From: Pseudomonadota bacterium
GTDB lineage: Bacteria > CALINM01
Length of the DNA: 12,563 bases
Direction of reading: 5' to 3'
Assembly (NCBI GenBank): GCA_026415985.1
Contig: JAOAGA010000053.1
Coordinates: forward strand, 1-12,563
Shown: one piece after another, positions 267-12,563 of the stretch
Numbering within the stretch: position 1 is the stretch's first letter
Layout of the letters: each line of letters begins with the position of its first letter
Notes under the pieces: model-generated
What the model saw: only the letters and a program-made list of their open reading frames with translations
The model's database searches: none
What the model was told of the DNA's origin: nothing
Position numbers and translations under genes: made by a program

Positions 267-340
267 GGCGGCATAGCTCAGGTGGTCAGAGCATGCGGCT
301 CATATCCGCAGTGTCCGGGGTTCAAATCCCTGTGCCGCCA
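267..340 (+). tRNA. tRNA-Met (CAU), elongator type; Ile2 possible
   Basis: The cloverleaf folds fully. The acceptor stem is GGCGGCA (267-273) with TGCCGCC (333-339), followed by discriminator A340. The D stem is GCTC/GAGC. The anticodon stem TGCGG/CCGCA encloses the loop CTCATAT with anticodon CAT. The variable loop is short, and the T arm is CGGGG-TTCAAAT-CCCTG. CCA is not encoded (TTT follows). The first pair is G:C rather than the C/A mismatch of bacterial initiators, so this is not tRNA-fMet. A CAU anticodon can also belong to tRNA-Ile2, whose C34 is modified to lysidine; sequence alone does not exclude this. tRNA genes are common insertion sites for islands, but I see no repeated 3' end of this tRNA elsewhere in the window. 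Confidence 0.93.
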
Positions 341-1848: not shown

Positions 1849-3405
1849 ATGAAATATACTGTTTTAATTTTTGATGTGACGGGTATACAGAGATATATCT
1901 TTGGCTCTAACAGGCTCATTGAGAATTTAGGTGCTTCTTATACGGTATCGGAGTGTTTTAATAGTTTCCTTAAAGAGACCCTTAAGGGAATGAATCTTTC
2001 AATAGAGCATTTTGATAGTTGGAGGGATAACAGATCTTCATTATTAAAAAATAACCCACACCTGAAATATGAGGTTGTGTATTTAGGTGGAGGAAATATT
2101 ATCCTTATTACTACTGATAAAGCCATAGCAGATGATATTACAAGAAGGTTTACTAAAGATTTACTTATAAAGGCTCCGGGATTATCTGTTGCCTCTGCCT
2201 TTATAGAGGTAGATTATGAAAGCTTTTTTAATGAATACGATAGCTATAATGGGTTAATTTTTGAAAAACTAAATATCGCTAAAAACTCTCAGGTAGTAAT
2301 AAATAAACCTTATAACTTTGGTATAACCGCAGAGTGTCCGAGAAGTGGAGATACTGCTGAAATATATTATAGCAAGGATAAATGTTATATATCATCTGTG
2401 TCCTATGTAAAAATTAAAAATTCACAAGAGGCAAAAAAAAGGATTGAAGAAGAATATAAAGGCCTTTTTCAGGATAAGTTTTGTTTTACCGATGATCTTG
2501 AAAATTTATGGCAGAGCAAAGACAGCGATAATCATATAGCTGTTGTTCATATAGATGGTAATAATATGGGCAGGCGTTTTAGAAAGATAAAAACAGTAGC
2601 AGAACTCAGAAAATTATCAATAATGGTTGAGAATATCACAAAAAACTCATTCCGGGCACTTCTTGAGAGTATTATAGAAAAAATTGATATTCTAAGCTCT
2701 GCACTTGGCAGAACTGATATACCTCTTTATGATAACAAGAAAATTCTGCCAATTCGTCCAATAATTATTGGTGGTGACGATATTACCTTCGTTACCGACG
2801 GAAGGTTAGGTATTTACTTTGCCAAAATTTTTATGTCCACCTTTGAAGATCTTGGAAAATCACTCTTAGACGAAGACGGAGAAGGGCTTACCTGTTGTGG
2901 CGGTGTTGCCATAGCAAGGACGAAATACCCCTTTTATAGGGTTTACAACTTGTCTGAAGAGCTTTGTGCCTCTGCAAAAAGCTATAAGAAAAAAAACAAT
3001 GCAAAGGGGTCCTTTATTGACTTTCATATAAATCATCAGGGTATATCTAATAGCATAGATGTTATTAGAGAAAACAATTACAAAACAGAGGATGGTTCAC
3101 TTATTTTCAGACCCTATAAGATTGGTTCCTACGAAGACAGAGGGCTTGAAAGATTAATTGAGAACGCAAAAAAGCTGAAGGGGTTTAGTAAAAACAAGAT
3201 AAAGGATCTAAGACAGGCTCTCTATGGTGGCAGAACAGAAGTTTCGGAGTTCTTGATAAGAAATAAAGACAGGCATTTTAAGTTGCCTGATTTTGACGAA
3301 AAAGGCTACGCTAAGGAAGTATTTTATGAGGGTGTCACACCTTATTTTGATATTCTTGAGTTTATGGAGCTTTATCCATTAAATATTGATGAGGTTAGCC
3401 AATGA
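1849..3405 (+). CDS. cas10: Cas10, type III-D, HD-less with intact GGDD
   Basis: This is the large subunit of the effector complex (518 residues). It makes cyclic oligoadenylate when the complex binds target RNA. The protein starts directly with the first palm domain (FDVTGIQRYIFG, residues 8-19; GGGN near 80-83), so the N-terminal HD DNase domain of many Cas10 proteins is absent, as is usual in subtype III-D. The second palm domain has HIDGNNMG (234-241) and the catalytic IIIGGDD (305-311), then GGVAIARTKYPF (351-362). Between the palms a zinc-ribbon-like element is reduced to CxxS (163-166) and CxxS (179-182), so zinc binding is doubtful. The C-terminal part from about 430 is helical. The start has an AGGAG RBS at 6 nt. 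Its stop overlaps the next gene as ATGA. With no HD domain, the complex should act through RNA cleavage by Cas7 and through signalling. Confidence 0.95.
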   Translation: MKYTVLIFDVTGIQRYIFGSNRLIENLGASYTVSECFNSFLKETLKGMNLSIEHFDSWRDNRSSLLKNNPHLKYEVVYLGGGNIILITTDKAIADDITRRFTKDLLIKAPGLSVASAFIEVDYESFFNEYDSYNGLIFEKLNIAKNSQVVINKPYNFGITAECPRSGDTAEIYYSKDKCYISSVSYVKIKNSQEAKKRIEEEYKGLFQDKFCFTDDLENLWQSKDSDNHIAVVHIDGNNMGRRFRKIKTVAELRKLSIMVENITKNSFRALLESIIEKIDILSSALGRTDIPLYDNKKILPIRPIIIGGDDITFVTDGRLGIYFAKIFMSTFEDLGKSLLDEDGEGLTCCGGVAIARTKYPFYRVYNLSEELCASAKSYKKKNNAKGSFIDFHINHQGISNSIDVIRENNYKTEDGSLIFRPYKIGSYEDRGLERLIENAKKLKGFSKNKIKDLRQALYGGRTEVSEFLIRNKDRHFKLPDFDEKGYAKEVFYEGVTPYFDILEFMELYPLNIDEVSQ

Positions 3406-4055
3406 ATATCATAACATTAAAAGTTACATTGTTATCAGATACTATCGTAGGTTCTGGAGAAGGATACGGTGCAATTATAGATACTGATATAGTCTATGAT
3501 GAGTACGGGATACCATATGTTCCCTCACGAAGGATAAAAGGTTGTTTGAGAGATTCTGCCAACAGGATATGTTTTTATTTAGGAAAGGACAAGAAGGGAA
3601 AATTAGAATATCCTCAGGTTGAATATGTTTTTGGTAATGGCTTTAGGGAATCACTTTTTACTATTTCCAATTTATATATTGAAAACTATAAAAACATCAA
3701 AGAGTGGTTTAGATACTTATACCATAATATGAAAAATGCCTTTTCAAAGGAAGCAGTTATCGATTACTTTACCTATTTAAGACAACAGACATCACTGATT
3801 GAGGGTATTGCAAAAGAACATTCCTTGAGAACGATAAGATGTTTGAAGAAAGGCATCACATTCACGGGTACAATTGAGATTCTCTCTGATGATGAGGTTG
3901 TATATGAACTCCTTTATCTTTCTGCAAAAAACCTGAAACATATGGGAACAAAAAGAAATAGAGGCTTTGGTGAGGTTATTTGTGAGTTATCTCCCCATAG
4001 AGATGACCTTTACGAAAAATTGGAGGGAAGATGTTTAAAGTTGGATACCTTATAG
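3402..4055 (+). CDS. Cas7 (Csm3-like) backbone RAMP
   Basis: This 217-residue single-domain RAMP belongs to the Csm3 group. It should coat the crRNA spacer as a backbone subunit and cut target RNA. The N-terminal block GSGEGYGAIIDTDIVYDEYG is followed by PYVPSRRIKG (38-47), the counterpart of the PYIPGSSLKG block of Csm3. Asp27, six residues before Asp33, takes the place of the catalytic Asp in the Csm3 block IDNPVIRD, so cleavage activity is predicted. A Gly-rich RAMP loop, MGTKRNRGFGEV (181-192), lies near the C terminus. The PGSS of typical Csm3 is PSRR here. The start codon overlaps the cas10 stop by 4 nt, implying translational coupling. Confidence 0.88.
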   Translation: MNIITLKVTLLSDTIVGSGEGYGAIIDTDIVYDEYGIPYVPSRRIKGCLRDSANRICFYLGKDKKGKLEYPQVEYVFGNGFRESLFTISNLYIENYKNIKEWFRYLYHNMKNAFSKEAVIDYFTYLRQQTSLIEGIAKEHSLRTIRCLKKGITFTGTIEILSDDEVVYELLYLSAKNLKHMGTKRNRGFGEVICELSPHRDDLYEKLEGRCLKLDTL

Positions 4056-5536
4056 AGGCTTTATCACCGCTTATTATTAGCGATAATATAATAGACCAAA
4101 ACCTTGTACCTTCTAAGGATTATATTACAGGGTCTGCTTTAAGGGGTGTTTTCGCGGGTGTTTATCTAAGGAAACGTGGTTTAAGAACCCCAGCCCATTC
4201 AGATAGAAATTTTAAAAGACTGTTTCTTGATGAAAGACTACATTTTTTTAACGCATACCCCACAATAGTTGAGAACCAAAATGTTCTAATGACTCAGCCT
4301 CTGCCTTTTTTTATACAAAACGTGAAGGATACAGACAAATATATAAATATTTTTTCAGAACCTGTTGATGAACAGACAAAACTTAAGAAATTTTTTTACT
4401 GCATTGCAGATGGTAGCTTAAAAAAGGTTGATATAAGAAAACGTATTTTTTTCCATAATGCCATAGATTATCAAGCTGGCACGACAAAGGAAGGTTTTAT
4501 CTTTAACTACGAAGCTATAGAGGAGGGACAGTTTTTTTATGGCGAGATTTCAGGAGAGAAAGAGGATATAGAAGAATTAATGGGAACAATAGGATATGAT
4601 GATATAAACTGTAGAGTTGGTAAATCAAGAAACGCTCAATACGGCAATATTATTATTAAGTTTACCGATAAGACGTTAAAACCTTATTTACAAGAGGATA
4701 TTTCTGTTCAGGATGGAAAAATAACCATGCTTTGTCTCTCAGATTTAATTATAAGTAATGAGATGGGTCTGTCATCCTGCTCTGTAAAAGATATGGAAAG
4801 GTATCTGAAAATCTTGACAGGTAACCAAGATCTGAAGATAGAGAATGCAATATTTAGAGTTTATGAGGTTGAAGGTTTTGTTTCTGTTTGGAGAATGAGA
4901 AGATATAAACAATGGGCCTTTGAGAAGGGCTCTTCATTTCTCCTTTCCGGTATTAAAGAAGACGATTGTAGAATACTTAAAGATATTTTATTGAGGGGTG
5001 CAGGTTTATTTAGAGGAGAGGGATATGGAAAAGTTATCTTTATTAATAATAAAGAGTTTAAACTTCCCAAAGAGAGCTTAAAAGAACGTGAGTTAAAAAA
5101 ACCAGTTCTGATGGAAAAAAATACAAAAGAAATAATATTTGACGTTCATCTCAATTATCTTTCCAGACATATAAAGACATTGGCTATAAAAGATGCAGAG
5201 GCTTTTAGTTTTATACCTACGCCATCTCTTCTTTCCCGAATAAGTAATGTTCTGGAAAGAGAAGAAAGTTTTGAGAGTTTTTCAACTTTTTTAAGTAATC
5301 TGAGAAACAAGGCTAAAGAGGCATTAAAACTCTGCCATAATAATAAAGTAAACTTATTAGATGTTTTAGAAAATGGAGTTGATATGTTAAGAGCAGAAAT
5401 ATCTGAAAGGATAGATGAGCTTAAAAATGTTATCGGAACAGAGATTGACAGAAAGGTAGATTGTTATAGGTTCTATAAATTGTATATCATTACCCTCTTA
5501 TATACTTTAAGGAAGATTAAAAAGGAGAAAAACTAA
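4031..5536 (+). CDS. csx10: Csx10, Cas5-type RAMP of subtype III-D
   Basis: Csx10 is the III-D member of the Cas5 group, expected to hold the 5' handle of the crRNA and contact Cas10. The N terminus GYLIEALSPLIIS (5-17) with SKDYITGSALRGVFAGVYL (28-46) is typical of Csx10. Two RAMP folds can be traced. The first ends in a Gly loop, VGKSRNAQYGNI (196-207), and the second in GAGLFRGEGYGKVIF (323-337). Residues about 370-501 form a Lys/Glu/Leu-rich, mostly helical tail. No separate Cas11 small subunit gene is present, and this tail is a candidate for that role (inference). The ATG overlaps the preceding gene by 25 nt and is preceded by GGAGGG at 4022-4027. Confidence 0.85.
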   Translation: MFKVGYLIEALSPLIISDNIIDQNLVPSKDYITGSALRGVFAGVYLRKRGLRTPAHSDRNFKRLFLDERLHFFNAYPTIVENQNVLMTQPLPFFIQNVKDTDKYINIFSEPVDEQTKLKKFFYCIADGSLKKVDIRKRIFFHNAIDYQAGTTKEGFIFNYEAIEEGQFFYGEISGEKEDIEELMGTIGYDDINCRVGKSRNAQYGNIIIKFTDKTLKPYLQEDISVQDGKITMLCLSDLIISNEMGLSSCSVKDMERYLKILTGNQDLKIENAIFRVYEVEGFVSVWRMRRYKQWAFEKGSSFLLSGIKEDDCRILKDILLRGAGLFRGEGYGKVIFINNKEFKLPKESLKERELKKPVLMEKNTKEIIFDVHLNYLSRHIKTLAIKDAEAFSFIPTPSLLSRISNVLEREESFESFSTFLSNLRNKAKEALKLCHNNKVNLLDVLENGVDMLRAEISERIDELKNVIGTEIDRKVDCYRFYKLYIITLLYTLRKIKKEKN

Positions 5537-5538
5537 AT

Positions 5539-6810
5539 ATGTATGGTAATGTTATCGAATTTAGAGGAACGATATCTCTCCTTTCACCTCTCATTATCGG
5601 GAAGGGGGATAGCGAAAACAGCGATTTAGACGTTATTAAAGATAAAGATGGTAAGCCCTTTATTCCTGCAACTTCATTGGCAGGTGTTTTAAGAGAAGAG
5701 ATCAGAAAGATTAATGAAAACTGGGACAGATTCTTTGGCAATAAAGAAAAAGAACAAAGCAGACTGATATTCAATGATTTGACAATAAAAAAACTTACAG
5801 GTATAAAGGTAAGGGATGGCATTAGAATTGACAACAAGATCGGGATTGTTGAGGATAAAAGCAAGTTTGATTATGAGATTGTAGAGAGGGGATCTGCATT
5901 TGGCTTTAAGATACAATCGCTTTTCCGGACCGAAGAGAGAGAAAAAATTCACCAGTTGTTCAGAACTATTAAGACACTTTTTTCTAAATCTAAACTAAGA
6001 ATAGGCGCAAAAACAAACAATGGCTTCGGTATCTTAGCTTTAAGTGATTATGAGTGTAGCGATTATGATCTAACAGATAGAAAGGCTTTATCTTGTTATC
6101 TTAAAAATATACCTCTAAATAATCTAAAACTTGAAGATATAGAGATCGAAAGCAACAAAGCTATATTACGACTGAGAGGAAGCCTGATTAACTCTTTCAT
6201 AATAAGAGATTATTCTGATTTTGCTGATTATGAAACCTTAAAATCCCTCGATAAACCTGTAATTACCTCATCTTCTTTAAAGGGTGCCATAAGGGCAAGG
6301 GCTGAGAAAATACTACATACCTTAGATAAGGACACAAACATTGTTAATAACCTCTTTGGCTATGTTACTGATAATAGTAAATCTGAAGGCAGGCATAAAA
6401 GTTTGGCAAAAAAAGGCAGAGTAACCGTAAAAGAGACATTAATAGAAGATTACGAGGAAAAGATTCAGGATAGGGTTAAGATAAACAGATTCACTGGAGG
6501 ACCTATAAATACCGCCCTTTTTAACTCGATGCCGGTTTTTTTTAAGAATGATAGTAAGTCTTTAGAGTTGTGTATTGAAATAGATTGTCCATTACCTGAG
6601 GAAGTAGCTCTAATACTTCTTGTAATGAAAGACCTGATGACGGGTGATATTGCCCTAGGCGGAGAAAAATCTATTGGGAGAGGAAGGTTTGATGGAGAAA
6701 CCTTAGAGATTGTCGTTGGTAAAGAAAGGATACTATATAAAAAGGGAGAGGAGTTAACATCAGAAGAGAAAAATTTATTAAATGCTTATATAAATAAACT
6801 CTTGGAGTAA
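5539..6810 (+). CDS. Double Cas7 (two Csm3-like domains fused)
   Basis: This 423-residue protein holds two Cas7 units in one chain and should supply two consecutive backbone positions of the III-D complex. Unit 1 (about 5-170) has SLLSPLIIGKGDSENSDLDV with Asp29 in the catalytic Asp position, then PFIPATSLAG (40-49) and a Gly loop GAKTNNGFGILAL (156-168). Unit 2 (about 205-395) has RLRGSLINSFIIRDYSDFAD (211-230), PVITSSSLKGAIRARAEKIL (240-259) and a terminal loop ALGGEKSIGRGRFDG (372-386). Asp224, Asp227 and Asp230 are the acidic candidates in unit 2; which one is catalytic cannot be told. An RBS-like AAGGAG lies at the end of csx10, 2 bp separate the genes, and no linker longer than about 35 residues divides the units. 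Cas7-2x fusions are known in some III-D complexes. Confidence 0.85.
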   Translation: MYGNVIEFRGTISLLSPLIIGKGDSENSDLDVIKDKDGKPFIPATSLAGVLREEIRKINENWDRFFGNKEKEQSRLIFNDLTIKKLTGIKVRDGIRIDNKIGIVEDKSKFDYEIVERGSAFGFKIQSLFRTEEREKIHQLFRTIKTLFSKSKLRIGAKTNNGFGILALSDYECSDYDLTDRKALSCYLKNIPLNNLKLEDIEIESNKAILRLRGSLINSFIIRDYSDFADYETLKSLDKPVITSSSLKGAIRARAEKILHTLDKDTNIVNNLFGYVTDNSKSEGRHKSLAKKGRVTVKETLIEDYEEKIQDRVKINRFTGGPINTALFNSMPVFFKNDSKSLELCIEIDCPLPEEVALILLVMKDLMTGDIALGGEKSIGRGRFDGETLEIVVGKERILYKKGEELTSEEKNLLNAYINKLLE

Positions 6811-6814
6811 AACT

Positions 6815-7351
6815 ATGCTTGAACTAAAAACAATAGAAAAAAGCTCTGTTCAGGTTAATGAAAGCAGTTTTTTAGAAGAACTTTTATCTCGAATTGTAAT
6901 GGCTAACGGCAATTTTATCGCCTATATGGATAATGAGATTCTCATAGGTAAGGTATTAAATAATAAATTAATACCTGTAGAAAACTCTCTTGATCTTTCT
7001 TTTTTAAAAATCTTAAGGGTATTTAATCTTCAAAAAGAATATTTTTTATGGACCGACCATAACAAGTACTTTATGAGACTAAGAGATGATACTATTGGTG
7101 ATGAAATTGATGTTATAGAAGCAAAACAGCTTATATACGGCACAAGAGTAATTGAGAAAGATAATTATTCCGTATTGACAGAAGATAGAGGTATAGAACT
7201 GAAAATCCCCTATAAAGGACTAACAATAGATGAGTATAAAAATAGACTTTTTTTGTTAACAAGAAGTTATATTGGCTATACAAAAACGAACGTGGCAACT
7301 TATATAGATTTCAGATGCCTTGCCTTCACAAATAATGAGAAGATTCTCTAA
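6815..7351 (+). CDS. csx19: Csx19 family protein (III-D accessory subunit)
   Basis: This 178-residue protein matches the layout of Csx19, the family that includes Nostoc all1473 and is largely confined to III-D loci. Visible conserved-looking blocks are LKILRVFN (64-71), EYFLWT (75-80), FMRLRDD (86-92), LIYGT (106-110), EDRGIELKIP (123-132) and RSYIGYTKTNVATYIDFR (150-167). There is no signal peptide, membrane segment or known catalytic motif. In a structurally studied III-D variant Csx19 is part of the effector complex, so a structural role is the best guess. It starts 4 bp after the double cas7 gene, and the next gene starts 15 bp after its stop. Its biochemical function here is unknown. 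Confidence 0.75.
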   Translation: MLELKTIEKSSVQVNESSFLEELLSRIVMANGNFIAYMDNEILIGKVLNNKLIPVENSLDLSFLKILRVFNLQKEYFLWTDHNKYFMRLRDDTIGDEIDVIEAKQLIYGTRVIEKDNYSVLTEDRGIELKIPYKGLTIDEYKNRLFLLTRSYIGYTKTNVATYIDFRCLAFTNNEKIL

Positions 7352-7366
7352 AAAGGGGAGAAATAT

Positions 7367-9199
7367 ATGAACAATAAAAATTTTAATAGTCCTATCCCTG
7401 AGTTTGCTTATGCACCCTATAACTTCGTCTCCCTGAATGACAAAATAATCCCTGCAGATACCAATCCGAAGGAGCTTGACTTCAGCAGGTATCACCTTGA
7501 CAGGAATACTGGTTATATAGATTTAACAATTGAAACTTTAACACCACTTTATATAAGAAACGTAAGAGATAAAAATTCGGATAAAGCTAAGGAAAATTCA
7601 GATTTTTTTTCTCCTGCGAGTGTCTATTCCATACCGGGGAGCTCCATCAAGGGGATGGTAAGAACACTTGTAGAAATTCTTTCTCATAGCAGGATGTCCT
7701 TTATAGACAAAGAAGTAAAATATCATTTTCGCACCTTTGCCGATCGCTCATTAGAATTAAGGGATGAATATAAAAAAATACTTGTAAATGATGATAGAAT
7801 AAAAGGTTATTCCACAAAGGCACAGGGTGGTTATCTAAAAAAAATAGGCAATAATAAGTATGTAATTCATCCTGCAAAGTCAACTCCATCTCATTTTAGA
7901 GTCGAAGAGCAACTTGCAATTAAAGCAGGAGTTATAAAATACAAGATGAGTGATAAAGAATATAAAAGCACCGCTGTGGAGGTTTATTTTAAACCAGAAC
8001 ATGAAAAATCCCATAAGCATAGTCAGGTCCTTTTTTACGCAAAGGTAACTGACATAAAAAAGGCTGAAGGTGAATTGCCTAAAGACTTTAAAAGGGGCTA
8101 TCTTGTCTGTTCGGGTTTTATCGGACACAAATCAGACCATCCCAAACATATGCATTGGGTTATTGGTGAGGTTGATTTTTCAAGGACCTTTGAGATACCT
8201 GCAGATGTAATAGATAACTACAAAAAAGATGAGCTGAGAGACTCTAAGACAAACTTACTTGATAAAGTAGAAAATAATAAAGTCTATCCCTGTTTTTATA
8301 CCCTAAATAATAATAAGGTAAGCTCCTTTGGTAATACAGGTTTTTACAGAGTCCCCTACTCAAAAGCTGTAGGGGACTTATTACCATCCTGTCATAAAGA
8401 AGACAATAGCTCAACCGTAGATATGGCGGTTGCAATTTTTGGTAATGAGAAAGATTTTGCAGGAAGAGTAACTTTCTGTAACGCTAAGATTGTTGAAAGG
8501 GAAAACTTTTTACTTTCTACTGTTACTCCAAAGATACTATCAGCTCCGAAACCCACCTGTTTTCAGCATTATCTTGAACAGGATAGGCCTGATTATACAG
8601 ACCCGAAAAAAATAAAGGGGCTTAAAAATTATAATAGTCCCGGTGCGAAGATCAGGGGACACAAGCTTTATTGGCATAAGTCTAATCCTGACTATATTGA
8701 AAAAGATATTGAAAATATTAAAAGTCATCCAACTCAATATACCCGTATTACACCTGTGAAACAAGGGGTTAAGTTTAAAGGGAGAATTTATTTTGAAAAC
8801 CTCTCAGATGTTGAGTTAGGTGCCCTGCTAACCGCTCTTGACTTGCCTGATGGTCTTGCTCATAAAATAGGCATGGCAAAACCATTAGGGCTTGGTTCTG
8901 TAAAGATAAGACCTCTTTTATATTTCTCAGACAGAAGAAAAAGATATAGAGACTTTTTCTCAGAGATTGATTCATTGCAAGTCTCTAATGATATTGAAAA
9001 ATACAAAAAAACTTTTGAAAGCTATATCTTAAAATCTCTCAACTCAAACGCCAAAACTATATGGGATATAGAAAGGATAAGAAAGCTAAAGATACTTCTT
9101 GATTATAAAAACCAGAAAAAAAACACTAACTATATGAATATGTTAAAAAAATCTTTCAGAGAACGAAAAGTTTTACCACCCCCTGAAAAGGTATGGTAA
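7367..9199 (+). CDS. Large Cas7-like RAMP (TIGR03986-type)
   Basis: This 610-residue RAMP resembles the TIGR03986 family, a long Cas7-type protein found in III-D operons. After a Pro/Asn-rich N terminus, the RAMP fold opens with GYIDLTIETLTPLYIRN (49-65) and has the family hallmark YSIPGSSIKGMVRTLVEILS (87-106). The centre is a long insertion (roughly 150-480) that includes a His-rich strip, GHKSDHPKHMHW. The fold closes with the Gly loop IGMAKPLGLGSVKIRP (501-516) and a helical Lys/Arg-rich tail. I see no Asp equivalent to the Csm3 catalytic residue, so it is probably a non-cutting backbone or capping unit. The start has a strong RBS (AAGGGGAG, 7352-7359). The stop overlaps the next start (ATGGTAA). 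Confidence 0.82.
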   Translation: MNNKNFNSPIPEFAYAPYNFVSLNDKIIPADTNPKELDFSRYHLDRNTGYIDLTIETLTPLYIRNVRDKNSDKAKENSDFFSPASVYSIPGSSIKGMVRTLVEILSHSRMSFIDKEVKYHFRTFADRSLELRDEYKKILVNDDRIKGYSTKAQGGYLKKIGNNKYVIHPAKSTPSHFRVEEQLAIKAGVIKYKMSDKEYKSTAVEVYFKPEHEKSHKHSQVLFYAKVTDIKKAEGELPKDFKRGYLVCSGFIGHKSDHPKHMHWVIGEVDFSRTFEIPADVIDNYKKDELRDSKTNLLDKVENNKVYPCFYTLNNNKVSSFGNTGFYRVPYSKAVGDLLPSCHKEDNSSTVDMAVAIFGNEKDFAGRVTFCNAKIVERENFLLSTVTPKILSAPKPTCFQHYLEQDRPDYTDPKKIKGLKNYNSPGAKIRGHKLYWHKSNPDYIEKDIENIKSHPTQYTRITPVKQGVKFKGRIYFENLSDVELGALLTALDLPDGLAHKIGMAKPLGLGSVKIRPLLYFSDRRKRYRDFFSEIDSLQVSNDIEKYKKTFESYILKSLNSNAKTIWDIERIRKLKILLDYKNQKKNTNYMNMLKKSFRERKVLPPPEKVW

Positions 9200-11730
9200 C
9201 CACAAAGATAATATATTTAATTAAATGGTATAAACTAACCTTAGAGCTCGAAAAGATAAGACAATCAAGCTTTGAAAGAGAGATACCACAAGTTGTAATT
9301 CATTCGATAGTAAAAGAGATATCCTCAAATAAGCTTGATAATATTTTTTTTCATATTAAAAATCACACTTTTGGTGAAAGAATAAGAAAAGGAGAGAGTA
9401 TAACTGTTGAGATTATAATTCCTACAGATAATAGAGATTTAGCTGAAGAGATAAACAAAAGGACAATAAACTATTTAAACACCCCATCAGGCGGGAGAAA
9501 CTACAAACTAATAGACACCTTCCTTGAAAAGAGAGGCTATGATGATATATTTTTAGGAAGCTCTTTTGATTTTGAAGCAGAAGAAACAACCCTTGAGTTT
9601 TTAACTCCCCTGCACTTTAGACCCTTAGAAGAACACCACAGAACGTATCTTGATAAAAGTACTTTTATAAAATTCATAACAAAAAGATTAAAAAGGCTCT
9701 TTGATCTCCAAGTGGAATTTTCAGAAGATATGGATATTACCATTATCCCTTACTACTGGCAATATAAAGAAAAGGTTCATTACTCAAAAAGTCAGATAGG
9801 AACTCATCAGCTGATAAACGGATGCGTGGGTAAACTCTACCTCAGAGGAGACTTAAAAGAGATACTCCCTTTTTTAATACTTTGCAGTGAGTTACATTTA
9901 GGAACAAAAATCTCATTCTCCTATGGTTATTACAAACTTCATACCCCTTCCATACCCTTTCTCGATGAGACCTTTCAGAATTCGGTTAAGTTAAAACAAA
10001 CGTTTCTTGCAGTAACCAATATTCCTGAAGGAACAAAAATAATTATCGATCCTGAAAAATATTATCCTCAACCTAACATGGCAGAAAGAGTTGTTTATGA
10101 TGGCAGAGAATATATAAAAGAATATATGAATCCCATAGACAAGGTTTATGCCACTTTTACCTCAAAAGTACTTAGTGATTATAATGACAGAATACTCTCA
10201 AACACCACCTATTCATACAGAAAGAACGTCTCTCAGCTTGATGCAATAAAAAAGATAAACGAGCACTTGGAAGACAATGGTTATTATGTTCTGATAACTG
10301 AAATAGAAAGATTATATTCCTCCATCGACATAGAAATGTTATGGTATATCCTTGATGGATTAATACCAATGGCAGACAGGAAATTTAGAAAGATTCTGAG
10401 TGCTCTGATTTTTAATGGTTATACACTTGACGGAGCTTATCATAAAAGAGAGTATGGCTTGGTTACTATAAGTCCTTTAAGCCCTGTTCTTTCCAATATC
10501 TATCTAAATGTTGTAGATTTGGAGCTTAAAAACATTAAAGATATAAGTTTCCTAAGATATGCAGGAAACTATATATTTTTTTCAGACACCTCGGAGAAAT
10601 TAGAAAATCTTCTTGAAATATTGAAAGAAAAACTCCGATCACTAAATCTCTTTTTAAATGTCGATAATACTATACTTAAGAAAGCCACAGAAGGGTTTAC
10701 CTTTCTCGGTCATTACTTTCAAAAAAAAGATTCATCTCAAGAAGAAACAAAGATTTATAAAAAAACGCTCTATATAAACGATCCATCAAGCTTCTTGTCA
10801 ATATCAGATGAATCTATAGAAATATACGATGAAAAAAAGCAAGTAAAAACTATACCTTTAAGGCGGATAAAAGAAATAATAATTGAAGATAATGCCACAT
10901 TCTCAACAGCCCTTTTAAAAAAGACCAGTCAGTTTAACATTCCTATCTCAATATCTTTAAAAAAGGCAAACAGTTCAATAATAATATCACCAAATAAAAG
11001 AGAGTTTTACAACTCCATTCACAACCATATCTTGTCATACTCAAATCTTGAAGACTTTGAGAAGATAAACATTGCAAGAGAAATTGTGAAAGCAAAGATA
11101 AAAAGTTATATAACTTTATATTCCTCAACCCCTAAAATTGAAAGTAAAGAAACCATGGAACAATTAAAAGAACATCTGAAAAAAGTCGATAAATTAATAA
11201 CCCTTGAGGAGATAAGAGGCTATGAGGGGAGGGTAAGCAGGATTATTTTTAGTCTTTTTTCCGATCATACAAAAGCTGATGAGTTCAAAATAACAAAAAG
11301 AGATAGATTAAGAAAAGACTATATAAACACACTTCTTAACTTTGGTTATCATCTACTTTTTGTGCGGATAAATATGCTTGTTCGTTCAAAGAACCTAAAC
11401 CCTTATCTTGGCTTTTTACATTATTCTACCGATGATTATGAACAATTTGTTTGTGATATACAGGAAATTTTTAGAGCAAGAATTGATAAAATCATTCTTA
11501 AACTAATAAACAAAGGAATGATTAAGCCAAATCATTTTAAAGATGAGAACGATCGATATCTCTTAGATAGCGCTGCAAAAAAGAAGTTTATACTGGAGTA
11601 TGAAAGTGAGATGCACAGTAAACACCATGATAATTTAACACTTCTTGAGTCAATGGAAAAACAGGTAGAATATTTTAAAAGTTTTTTTGATTCAAGGGAT
11701 CCTTTAAAATATCTTTATTGGAAAATATGA
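9193..11730 (+). CDS. cas1: Cas6-RT-Cas1 fusion with degenerate reverse transcriptase
   Basis: This 845-residue fusion combines crRNA processing with spacer acquisition. Residues about 10-250 are Cas6: a RAMP fold with LINGCVGKLYLRGDL (207-221) and a final Gly loop LGTKISFSYGYYKL (236-249). His54 and His58 are the candidate catalytic bases. Residues about 300-510 are an RT of the group II intron-like class. Motif 2 is YSYRKN (340-345), motif A YVLITEIERLYSSID (365-379), motif B GLVTISPLSPVLSNIYL (422-438), motif C RYAGNYIFF (455-463), and the thumb-side block ends GFTFLGHYF (501-509). Both YADD aspartates are lost (Y456-A-G-N459), the motif A Asp is Glu370, and PQG of motif B is VTI (424-426). 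Residues about 522-845 are Cas1, with all expected metal ligands: Glu678 in YEGR, His743 in GFLH and Asp755 in CDIQEIFR. The RT is therefore predicted inactive and Cas1 active. The start overlaps the previous gene by 7 nt. Confidence 0.92.
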   Translation: MVTTKIIYLIKWYKLTLELEKIRQSSFEREIPQVVIHSIVKEISSNKLDNIFFHIKNHTFGERIRKGESITVEIIIPTDNRDLAEEINKRTINYLNTPSGGRNYKLIDTFLEKRGYDDIFLGSSFDFEAEETTLEFLTPLHFRPLEEHHRTYLDKSTFIKFITKRLKRLFDLQVEFSEDMDITIIPYYWQYKEKVHYSKSQIGTHQLINGCVGKLYLRGDLKEILPFLILCSELHLGTKISFSYGYYKLHTPSIPFLDETFQNSVKLKQTFLAVTNIPEGTKIIIDPEKYYPQPNMAERVVYDGREYIKEYMNPIDKVYATFTSKVLSDYNDRILSNTTYSYRKNVSQLDAIKKINEHLEDNGYYVLITEIERLYSSIDIEMLWYILDGLIPMADRKFRKILSALIFNGYTLDGAYHKREYGLVTISPLSPVLSNIYLNVVDLELKNIKDISFLRYAGNYIFFSDTSEKLENLLEILKEKLRSLNLFLNVDNTILKKATEGFTFLGHYFQKKDSSQEETKIYKKTLYINDPSSFLSISDESIEIYDEKKQVKTIPLRRIKEIIIEDNATFSTALLKKTSQFNIPISISLKKANSSIIISPNKREFYNSIHNHILSYSNLEDFEKINIAREIVKAKIKSYITLYSSTPKIESKETMEQLKEHLKKVDKLITLEEIRGYEGRVSRIIFSLFSDHTKADEFKITKRDRLRKDYINTLLNFGYHLLFVRINMLVRSKNLNPYLGFLHYSTDDYEQFVCDIQEIFRARIDKIILKLINKGMIKPNHFKDENDRYLLDSAAKKKFILEYESEMHSKHHDNLTLLESMEKQVEYFKSFFDSRDPLKYLYWKI

Positions 11731-12014
11731 AAAGAGAGTTTGATGATTATGCGGTAGTTTATGATATATCTGATAACAGAGAACGTTTTAAGGTTCAGAA
11801 AGTATTGAAGAATTTTGGTTTCAGAGTTCAGAAAAGTGTTTTTGAGTGCAGGCTTGACGATAAAAGTAAGAAAGAGCTCATAGAGAAACTTAAAAAATTA
11901 AAAATTGAGACAGGTTTTATTAAAATCTACAAACTTGAGTTTTATTATACGCCTTCTGTGATTGGTGATAACCCACCTGTGAACGAAGATACGGAAAGTG
12001 CGTATATAATATAG
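11727..12014 (+). CDS. cas2: Cas2, adaptation protein
   Basis: Cas2 forms the dimer core of the Cas1-Cas2 integrase. This 95-residue protein has the ferredoxin-like opening AVVYDISDNRERFKVQKVLK, with Asp in YDISD, followed by FGFRVQKSVFECRL, a hallmark Cas2 strand-turn. The ATG at 11727 forms an ATGA overlap with the stop of the fusion gene and fits the pattern of the operon. An upstream in-frame TTG at 11718 would add three residues but is less likely. The C-terminal tail (SVIGDNPPVNEDTESAYII) is acidic and probably flexible. It is the last gene before the array leader. Confidence 0.95.
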   Translation: MKREFDDYAVVYDISDNRERFKVQKVLKNFGFRVQKSVFECRLDDKSKKELIEKLKKLKIETGFIKIYKLEFYYTPSVIGDNPPVNEDTESAYII

Positions 12015-12145
12015 CTCTGTGAAAATAAAATTGTGTTGTTTTAAGAAATGTATGTGGAAAACCTGTTGATAAAATGTTGATAGTCGGATCATCCCGGAAA
12101 ACGCCAATTTTTGTTGAATTAAATCAATAAATTATATATCATAGA
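12015..12145 (+). promoter_or_regulatory. CRISPR leader
   Basis: These 131 AT-rich non-coding bases between the cas2 stop and the first repeat are in leader position. TGTTGAT occurs at 12064-12070 and 12075-12081 (11 bp apart, about one helical turn), and TGTTGA again at 12112-12117. A possible array promoter is TTGAAT (12114-12119), 17 bp, TATCAT (12137-12142), or an overlapping TTGTTG/TATATA pair. Either would start transcription at or just inside the first repeat. The promoter assignment is weak; the leader assignment rests on position and on repeat orientation. Confidence 0.65.
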
Positions 12146-12563
12146 GTTTCCGTACCCATCCCTGATATCAGGGGCTGAAACAAGGGATAGAACTTCTTGG
12201 ACGTAAGTGTCTAGTTTCCGTACCCATCCCTGATATCAGGGGCTGAAACTCGTACAATTTTGAAATGTCCAAAGTTACCAGTTTCCGTACCCATCCCTGA
12301 TATCAGGGGCTGAAACAATTTGGGACAGCTTCGCTGTCCCATCTGATTCTGTTTCCGTACCCATCCCTGATATCAGGGGCTGAAACCTGGATTTCCTCCG
12401 GATAACTTATATACTAGGTTTCCGTACCCATCCCTGATATCAGGGGCTGAAACAAACGGAGAAGTATTTTTAGCTCTCCTGGTAGAGTTTCCGTACCCAT
12501 CCCTGATATCAGGGGCTGAAACAAACTACAAAAGTTGTTGTGATCCTGACTTATCGTTTCCGT
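12146..12563 (+). CRISPR. Right CRISPR array, continues past window end
   Basis: Six full 36-bp repeats start at 12146, 12214, 12281, 12351, 12418 and 12487, and a seventh begins at 12556 and is cut by the window. Spacers lie at 12182-12213 (32 nt), 12250-12280 (31), 12317-12350 (34), 12387-12417 (31), 12454-12486 (33) and 12523-12555 (33). All repeats are identical. Each holds the 14-bp palindrome CCCTGATATCAGGG, which ends exactly 8 nt before the repeat end, leaving GCTGAAAC as the expected 5' crRNA handle after Cas6 cleavage at the hairpin base. Transcription is inferred left to right, away from cas2. The third spacer contains its own strong hairpin. Confidence 0.98.

Follow-up and report, generated by a model that had tools for sequence, protein, structure and literature searches.

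A Cas6-RT-Cas1 fusion that has lost its reverse transcriptase active site in a type III-D CRISPR locus

Fusions of reverse transcriptase (RT) to Cas1 have attracted interest because they are able to write RNA into CRISPR arrays. The closest described systems are the Cas6-RT-Cas1 proteins of Thiomicrospira and Marinomonas (PDB 7kft/7kfu), which carry FADD/YADD at motif C and a Lys at motif D, and for which RT activity has been measured. Wang et al. showed that the substitutions D540A and K574A (Thiomicrospira numbering) each abolish RT activity and RNA-spacer ligation while sparing most DNA ligation (PMC8102632). Additionally, the engineered Marinomonas protein Cas6-RT-delta-Cas1 still takes spacers from DNA, and in Marinomonas an RT domain uncoupled from cDNA synthesis impedes RNA integration (PMC11014452). 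Natural inactivation of a polymerase that is nevertheless kept in a CRISPR complex has been reported for the Cas10 palm of types III-G and III-H (PMC12669027). The reviews and surveys available to us cover live CRISPR RTs, fissions and fusions; in the open literature, with subscription journals and preprints mostly outside its coverage, we found neither a natural RT-Cas1 protein described as having lost its active site nor any description of RT-less Cas6-Cas1 fusions.

Here we describe a Cas6-RT-Cas1 fusion encoded in what we call the window, the whole 12,563-nucleotide stretch of DNA that was analysed. This 12.6-kb contig holds a complete type III-D locus, including adaptation genes and a CRISPR array (Table 1), and it is assigned to III-D by the presence of Cas10 together with Csx10, Csx19 and several Cas7 RAMPs. 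The fusion shares with the Thiomicrospira and Marinomonas proteins its domain order, its Cas1 site, an adjacent cas2 and a type III context, but it differs from them in having Gly and Asn at motif C and Asn at motif D. It also differs from the III-G and III-H cases, where the inactivated part is the effector Cas10; here that part is the adaptation RT, and the window's own Cas10 retains GGDD.

Several other features of the locus and its genome deserve mention. Upstream of cas10, at 369-1121 on the forward strand, lies a gene for a membrane-anchored CARF protein (PADLOC CARF8/CARF_TM), likely a cyclic-oligoadenylate effector. A GTG-started version of this ORF would begin at 282, but a tRNA-like sequence with a CAT anticodon (about 269-340, forward strand) overlaps it, so the GTG start is probably spurious and the true start near 369. 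One common leader serves the window array (12146-12563) and a second array elsewhere in the genome (L155, G000:C91, 35-347). The sequence CAGCTTCGCTGTCCCATCT is common to two spacers, one per array, and in the window spacer it is part of a perfect hairpin; a genome search allowing at most 1 mismatch did not find the full hairpin outside the array. On a further contig (L002, 573-2313, reverse strand, G000:C100), two Cas1-like genes are neighbours: one encodes a normal 319-aa Cas1, the other a 274-aa partner that matches the N-terminal half of the Cas1 model only and has an altered His region (LNPEIGIIND). This partner may be a further inactive adaptation protein of the window genome.

Table 1. 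Features of the window, in window coordinates.
Feature	Coordinates	Strand	Remarks
Repeat of another array end, at contig start	42..77	+	
Cas10, III-D type	1849..3405	+	GGDD retained; no HD domain detected
Cas7-like RAMP	3402..4055	+	
Csx10 (Cas5 of III-D)	4031..5536	+	
Double Cas7 (Csx7-like)	5539..6810	+	
Csx19	6815..7351	+	TIGR03984, above its cut-off
TIGR03986 RAMP	7367..9199	+	452 bits, above cut-off; overlaps fusion gene start
Cas6-RT-Cas1 fusion, 845 aa	9193..11730	+	Pfam CRISPR_Cas6 134-247, RVT_1 312-508, Cas_Cas1 526-804
Cas6 part, residues ~7-250	9211..9942	+	22/26 live-invariant positions kept
Fingers K301 to V, R307 to Y	10093..10113	+	K/R in 11/11 live relatives and both outgroups
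RT core, catalytically dead, residues 305-512	10105..10728	+	
Motif A Asp to Glu370	10300..10302	+	Asp in 13/13 live
Motif B PQG to VTI (424-426)	10462..10470	+	Q425, G426 in 13/13 live
Motif C YADD to YAGN (456-459)	10558..10569	+	Both Asp in 13/13 live
Motif D Lys to Asn492 (Thiomicrospira K574)	10666..10668	+	K in 13/13 live
Cas1 part (523-845)	10759..11727	+	Active site E678/H743/D755 intact
cas2	11718..12014	+	PF09827
Leader region	12015..12145	+	Same sequence flanks second array, contig C91
CRISPR array	12146..12563	+	6 full 36-nt repeats, 5 complete 31-34-nt spacers, plus 1 before contig end

We compared the fusion with 13 proteins that have live RT motifs (L012, L013, L014, L015, L019, L124, L129, L130, L139, L140 and L153, with L016 and L037 as outgroups). 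Two of these, L012 and L013, align with it over nearly the whole length at 32-33% identity. The motif A, C and D residues are intact in every one of the 13 aligned live relatives, and motif B reads xQG in them. A first-pass annotation of this DNA had reported altered motifs A, B and C, a conserved SPLSP block and intact Cas1 ligands (Glu678, His743 and Asp755), and the alignment bears out each of these. That account was correct and understated: motif C is left with no acidic residue at all, and two further losses, of the motif D Lys and of the fingers Lys and Arg (now V301 and Y307), add to its conclusion that catalysis is gone. Compared with most live proteins, the stretch preceding the fingers lacks some 24-30 aa, and the RT core itself is free of indels. 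Two of the live proteins, L015 and L019 from Brocadia, have their RT palm extended right before YADD by inserted segments of roughly 26 and 43 aa.

How confident can we be that this RT is inactive? Judged by its residues, it is with strong support unable to bind the catalytic metal or a dNTP in the canonical way. Aligned through 7kft (offset 3, checked on H873 and R835), G458 corresponds to D540 and N492 to K574, and the window protein would thus be expected to behave like the D540A and K574A mutants. One might argue that the enzyme recruits other residues, E370 (still acidic) plus further acids, and so keeps some polymerase or terminal transferase activity. We regard this as very improbable: motif C has no acid, D465, six residues past N459, appears from the spacing to be too far along the chain, and in the live homologue the single substitutions D540A and K574A each suffice to abolish activity (PMC8102632). 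Nor does an assembly or sequencing error seem a realistic explanation, at a probability we would call negligible. The window does come from a single draft assembly of 161 contigs, but an error would have to produce six coordinated losses across about 190 codons with the frame unbroken, and dead RTs occur in independent genomes. The first-pass annotation had also judged an error unlikely, pointing in part to the open frame. That conclusion stands; the frame is indeed open throughout the fusion, with zero stops and no frameshift or truncation, but it is a weak argument, uninformative because Cas1 sits downstream in the same frame. The related statement that Asp to Gly needs two base changes holds for the present codon, GGA, which is two changes from GAT or GAC, although in principle one change suffices.

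The loss is concentrated in one domain. Counting positions invariant among live proteins, the window keeps 41/51 in Cas1 and 22/26 in Cas6 but just 22/48 in the RT, and since the live but more distant L016 keeps 36/48 of the same RT positions, the loss goes beyond chance. Such a contrast is what one might expect if the RT were merely decaying, its frame held open just because Cas1 lies downstream and its eventual fate a deletion. Searching genomes in the phylum of L012 (Nitrospirota-related) revealed other proteins with dead RTs. L126, L127 and L128 are full-length fusions of 847-870 aa in which the motif A Asp is replaced by T, S and S, respectively, motif C reads HADT and motif D has S492. 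They resemble the window in their dead motifs A, C and D, in the III-D operon and in the pattern of kept positions, and differ from it in the replacing residues (E, YAGN and N in the window). Their operons have the window's gene order, though the L128 contig begins inside the operon. The dead RT of this trio is not a fragment artefact, as the genome G088 is a single 1.94-Mb contig. The Cas1 residues E678, H743 and D755 are present throughout: in the trio and the window, in every live relative, and in the RT-less fusions discussed below.

The trio allows us to ask how a dead RT evolves. Pairwise identities among its members are 51-59% in the RT, 53-59% in Cas1 and 43-46% in Cas6. Four-fold sites of the RT agree at 37-38%, against about 28% by chance; with sites this close to saturation, RT codons evolving neutrally would have been randomised. 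Within the trio, with a common topology, the ratio of RT to Cas1 branch lengths is 1.17 (bootstrap median 1.13, 0.86-1.43), compared with about 1.00 (0.78-1.25) for live proteins, while on the trio stem it is about 2.06. Because the trio RT diverges no faster relative to Cas1 than live RTs do, these rates show that its fold has been kept under purifying selection after catalysis was lost. These ratios form the pattern of rapid change when catalysis was lost and a return to constraint afterwards, a reading that assumes a loss before the trio split, as supported by the HADT and S492 common to all three.

For the window itself, the equivalent argument is indirect. The first-pass annotation had proposed that the domain is kept as a scaffold and is not decaying, to be gauged by whether close relatives share YAGN and by the relative rates of RT and Cas1. 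There is no close relative of the window, and the dead trio has HADT, not YAGN; in terms of branch-length ratios, the trio's near-live value supports the proposal, whereas the window branch gives 1.33 with an interval of 0.84-2.0 from one sequence. Constraint on the window RT is therefore argued by analogy. Out of 47 live-fixed RT positions, the window keeps 16 of the 19 kept by the whole trio but only 5 of the 21 lost by the whole trio (Fisher p = 1.7e-4), which indirectly suggests that selection has acted on its own RT as well. Taken together, we consider decay quite unlikely. In its favour are the uneven loss of invariant positions, the existence of RT-less relatives and the slightly raised window ratio; but the window's losses coincide with those of the trio and are not random, its hydrophobic core is retained (58/66 columns) and its RT core has no indel. 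Moreover, real decay looks different: in the broken copies L133 (G281) and L137/L138 (G446), the fusion carries a frameshift, a stop or an internal deletion, yet YADD and QG, where present, are intact.

Structure prediction is consistent with a retained fold. An AF2 model built on a 28-sequence alignment gives the RT block a pLDDT of 86-97 across residues 310-510, a confidence that the live relatives in the alignment may drive; a single-sequence RT control reaches 35. VIA matches of the predicted RT include 6ar1 (Z 26.6, rmsd 2.7 over 257) and 8bgj (Z 22.2, rmsd 1.9 over 190), and 7kfu is the best structural match across the whole predicted fusion, in which a pTM of 0.60 makes relative domain placement uncertain. 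The window protein is thus predicted to retain a group-II-like RT fold.

What might such a fold do? One idea is that the dead RT has been retained because it handles nucleic acids, binding DNA or RNA prespacers or gating RNA away from Cas1. R343, S347, R455 and the SPLSP block are kept, the RT core has the same net charge despite the lost basic residues, and the Marinomonas result with an uncoupled RT domain (PMC11014452) also speaks for this idea. But the fingers K301/R307, R348, and the motif D Lys with its basic neighbours are gone in both the window and the trio. As the fingers and motif D have lost these basic residues, canonical nucleic-acid binding is less likely, and of the two roles offered in the first-pass annotation, we prefer that of a protein scaffold to that of a nucleic-acid-binding bridge. 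We therefore see nucleic-acid handling as an unlikely though serious candidate. Another possibility is that a live RT elsewhere in the cell acts in trans or in mixed complexes. G132 does carry a second RT gene, on another contig, but the only RT found in the window genome (G000, 84% complete), G088 and G243 is the dead one, and we give this explanation very little weight.

RT function may have been lost once or twice. The window joins the trio in trees of Cas1 and of Cas6+Cas1, and all four proteins share the derived RT residues L335, Y375, Y460 and L470. AU tests accept the window and trio together (0.87) as well as apart (0.24 and 0.51), and hence both one loss and two. The effector genes weakly place the window outside a group of the trio and the live G311 (support 87/75). 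For G311, the fusion and effector histories conflict (AU 9e-7). In that genome (L152, 8147-9885), the TIGR03986 gene is separated from the live fusion by two proteins recognised by eye, one of them HD (RelA/SpoT-like) and the other a membrane CARF-like protein. The gap in the gene order and the tree conflict suggest that the adaptation module of G311 was swapped, and the conflict fits the modular exchange described by Silas et al. (PMC5513706). Other genomes of the window's phylum, which comprises 3, hold no RT-Cas1. A wider draw of 241 genomes added one live protein (L153) and one RT-less protein that was already known; among viral contigs, a single-protein scan found no relative and an alignment scan one Cas1 only. 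In the sister genus, G001 encodes a protein (L004, 1264-3654, forward strand) in which TPR repeats and an AEP-TOTE primase domain are fused to a group-II-like RT whose motifs are live; it is reminiscent of CRISPR-associated RT-primase proteins.

In other relatives the RT is missing outright. In three genomes of the UBP6 phylum, fusions of 593-597 aa (L017, L018 and L125) run straight from Cas6 into Cas1 with cas2 next, and L018 and L125 also have the remaining III-D operon, Csx19 excepted. Operon order is identical across dead, live and RT-less loci. These proteins are natural counterparts of the engineered Marinomonas Cas6-RT-delta-Cas1, which resembles the window in pairing Cas6 and Cas1 without RT function; the window differs in retaining a predicted RT fold. 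Full fusions with live motifs (L014, L124) occur in UBP6 too, and because trees place the RT-less proteins beside them, they more likely arose by deletion of the RT than from an ancestor without one, although the AU test does not reject placing them with the dead proteins (0.14). The arrays adjoining RT-less fusions comprise some 12 to 20 repeats, and their spacers are distinct; diverse arrays adjoin dead-RT fusions as well. Because the RT-less relatives show that the domain is dispensable, not every lineage needs it as a scaffold.

Our favoured reading, which we hold to be likely, is that the window fusion is a type III-D adaptation protein descended from a working integrase, now a DNA-only integrase in which the RT is a structural pseudoenzyme. 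A working Cas6-RT-Cas1 ancestor would have lost reverse transcription, leaving Cas6 to process crRNA and Cas1 and Cas2 to integrate DNA prespacers, whether double- or single-stranded. As a rigid block, the dead RT would position Cas6 next to Cas1-Cas2, and it may exclude RNA from the Cas1 site, a role we consider because of the Marinomonas finding on RNA integration (PMC11014452). DNA would then be the sole source of new spacers, in agreement with the published D540A, K574A and RT-deletion mutants, and in the UBP6 phylum the same end may have been reached through RT deletion, giving the natural Cas6-Cas1 fusions. That the dead domain has long been kept by relatives, and cleanly cut out in a few, suggests that its remaining role is probably structural, within a machine that writes spacers from DNA only. 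We speculate more tentatively, with somewhat greater doubt than belief, that a single ancient III-D lineage, spanning the window's phylum and the Nitrospirota-related one, turned its fusion into a pseudo-RT whose RT part now serves a DNA-only integrase as a structural block or as a gate against RNA, while a sister line deleted the RT.

If these readings are true, evolution itself has run the RT-point-mutant and RT-deletion experiments. Dead-RT proteins beside RT-less relatives separate the enzymatic role of the RT from its role as a part of the complex, and the question of why an RT was fused to Cas1 becomes directly testable. They also carry a warning that annotation of an RT-Cas1 is not equivalent to capture of RNA spacers.
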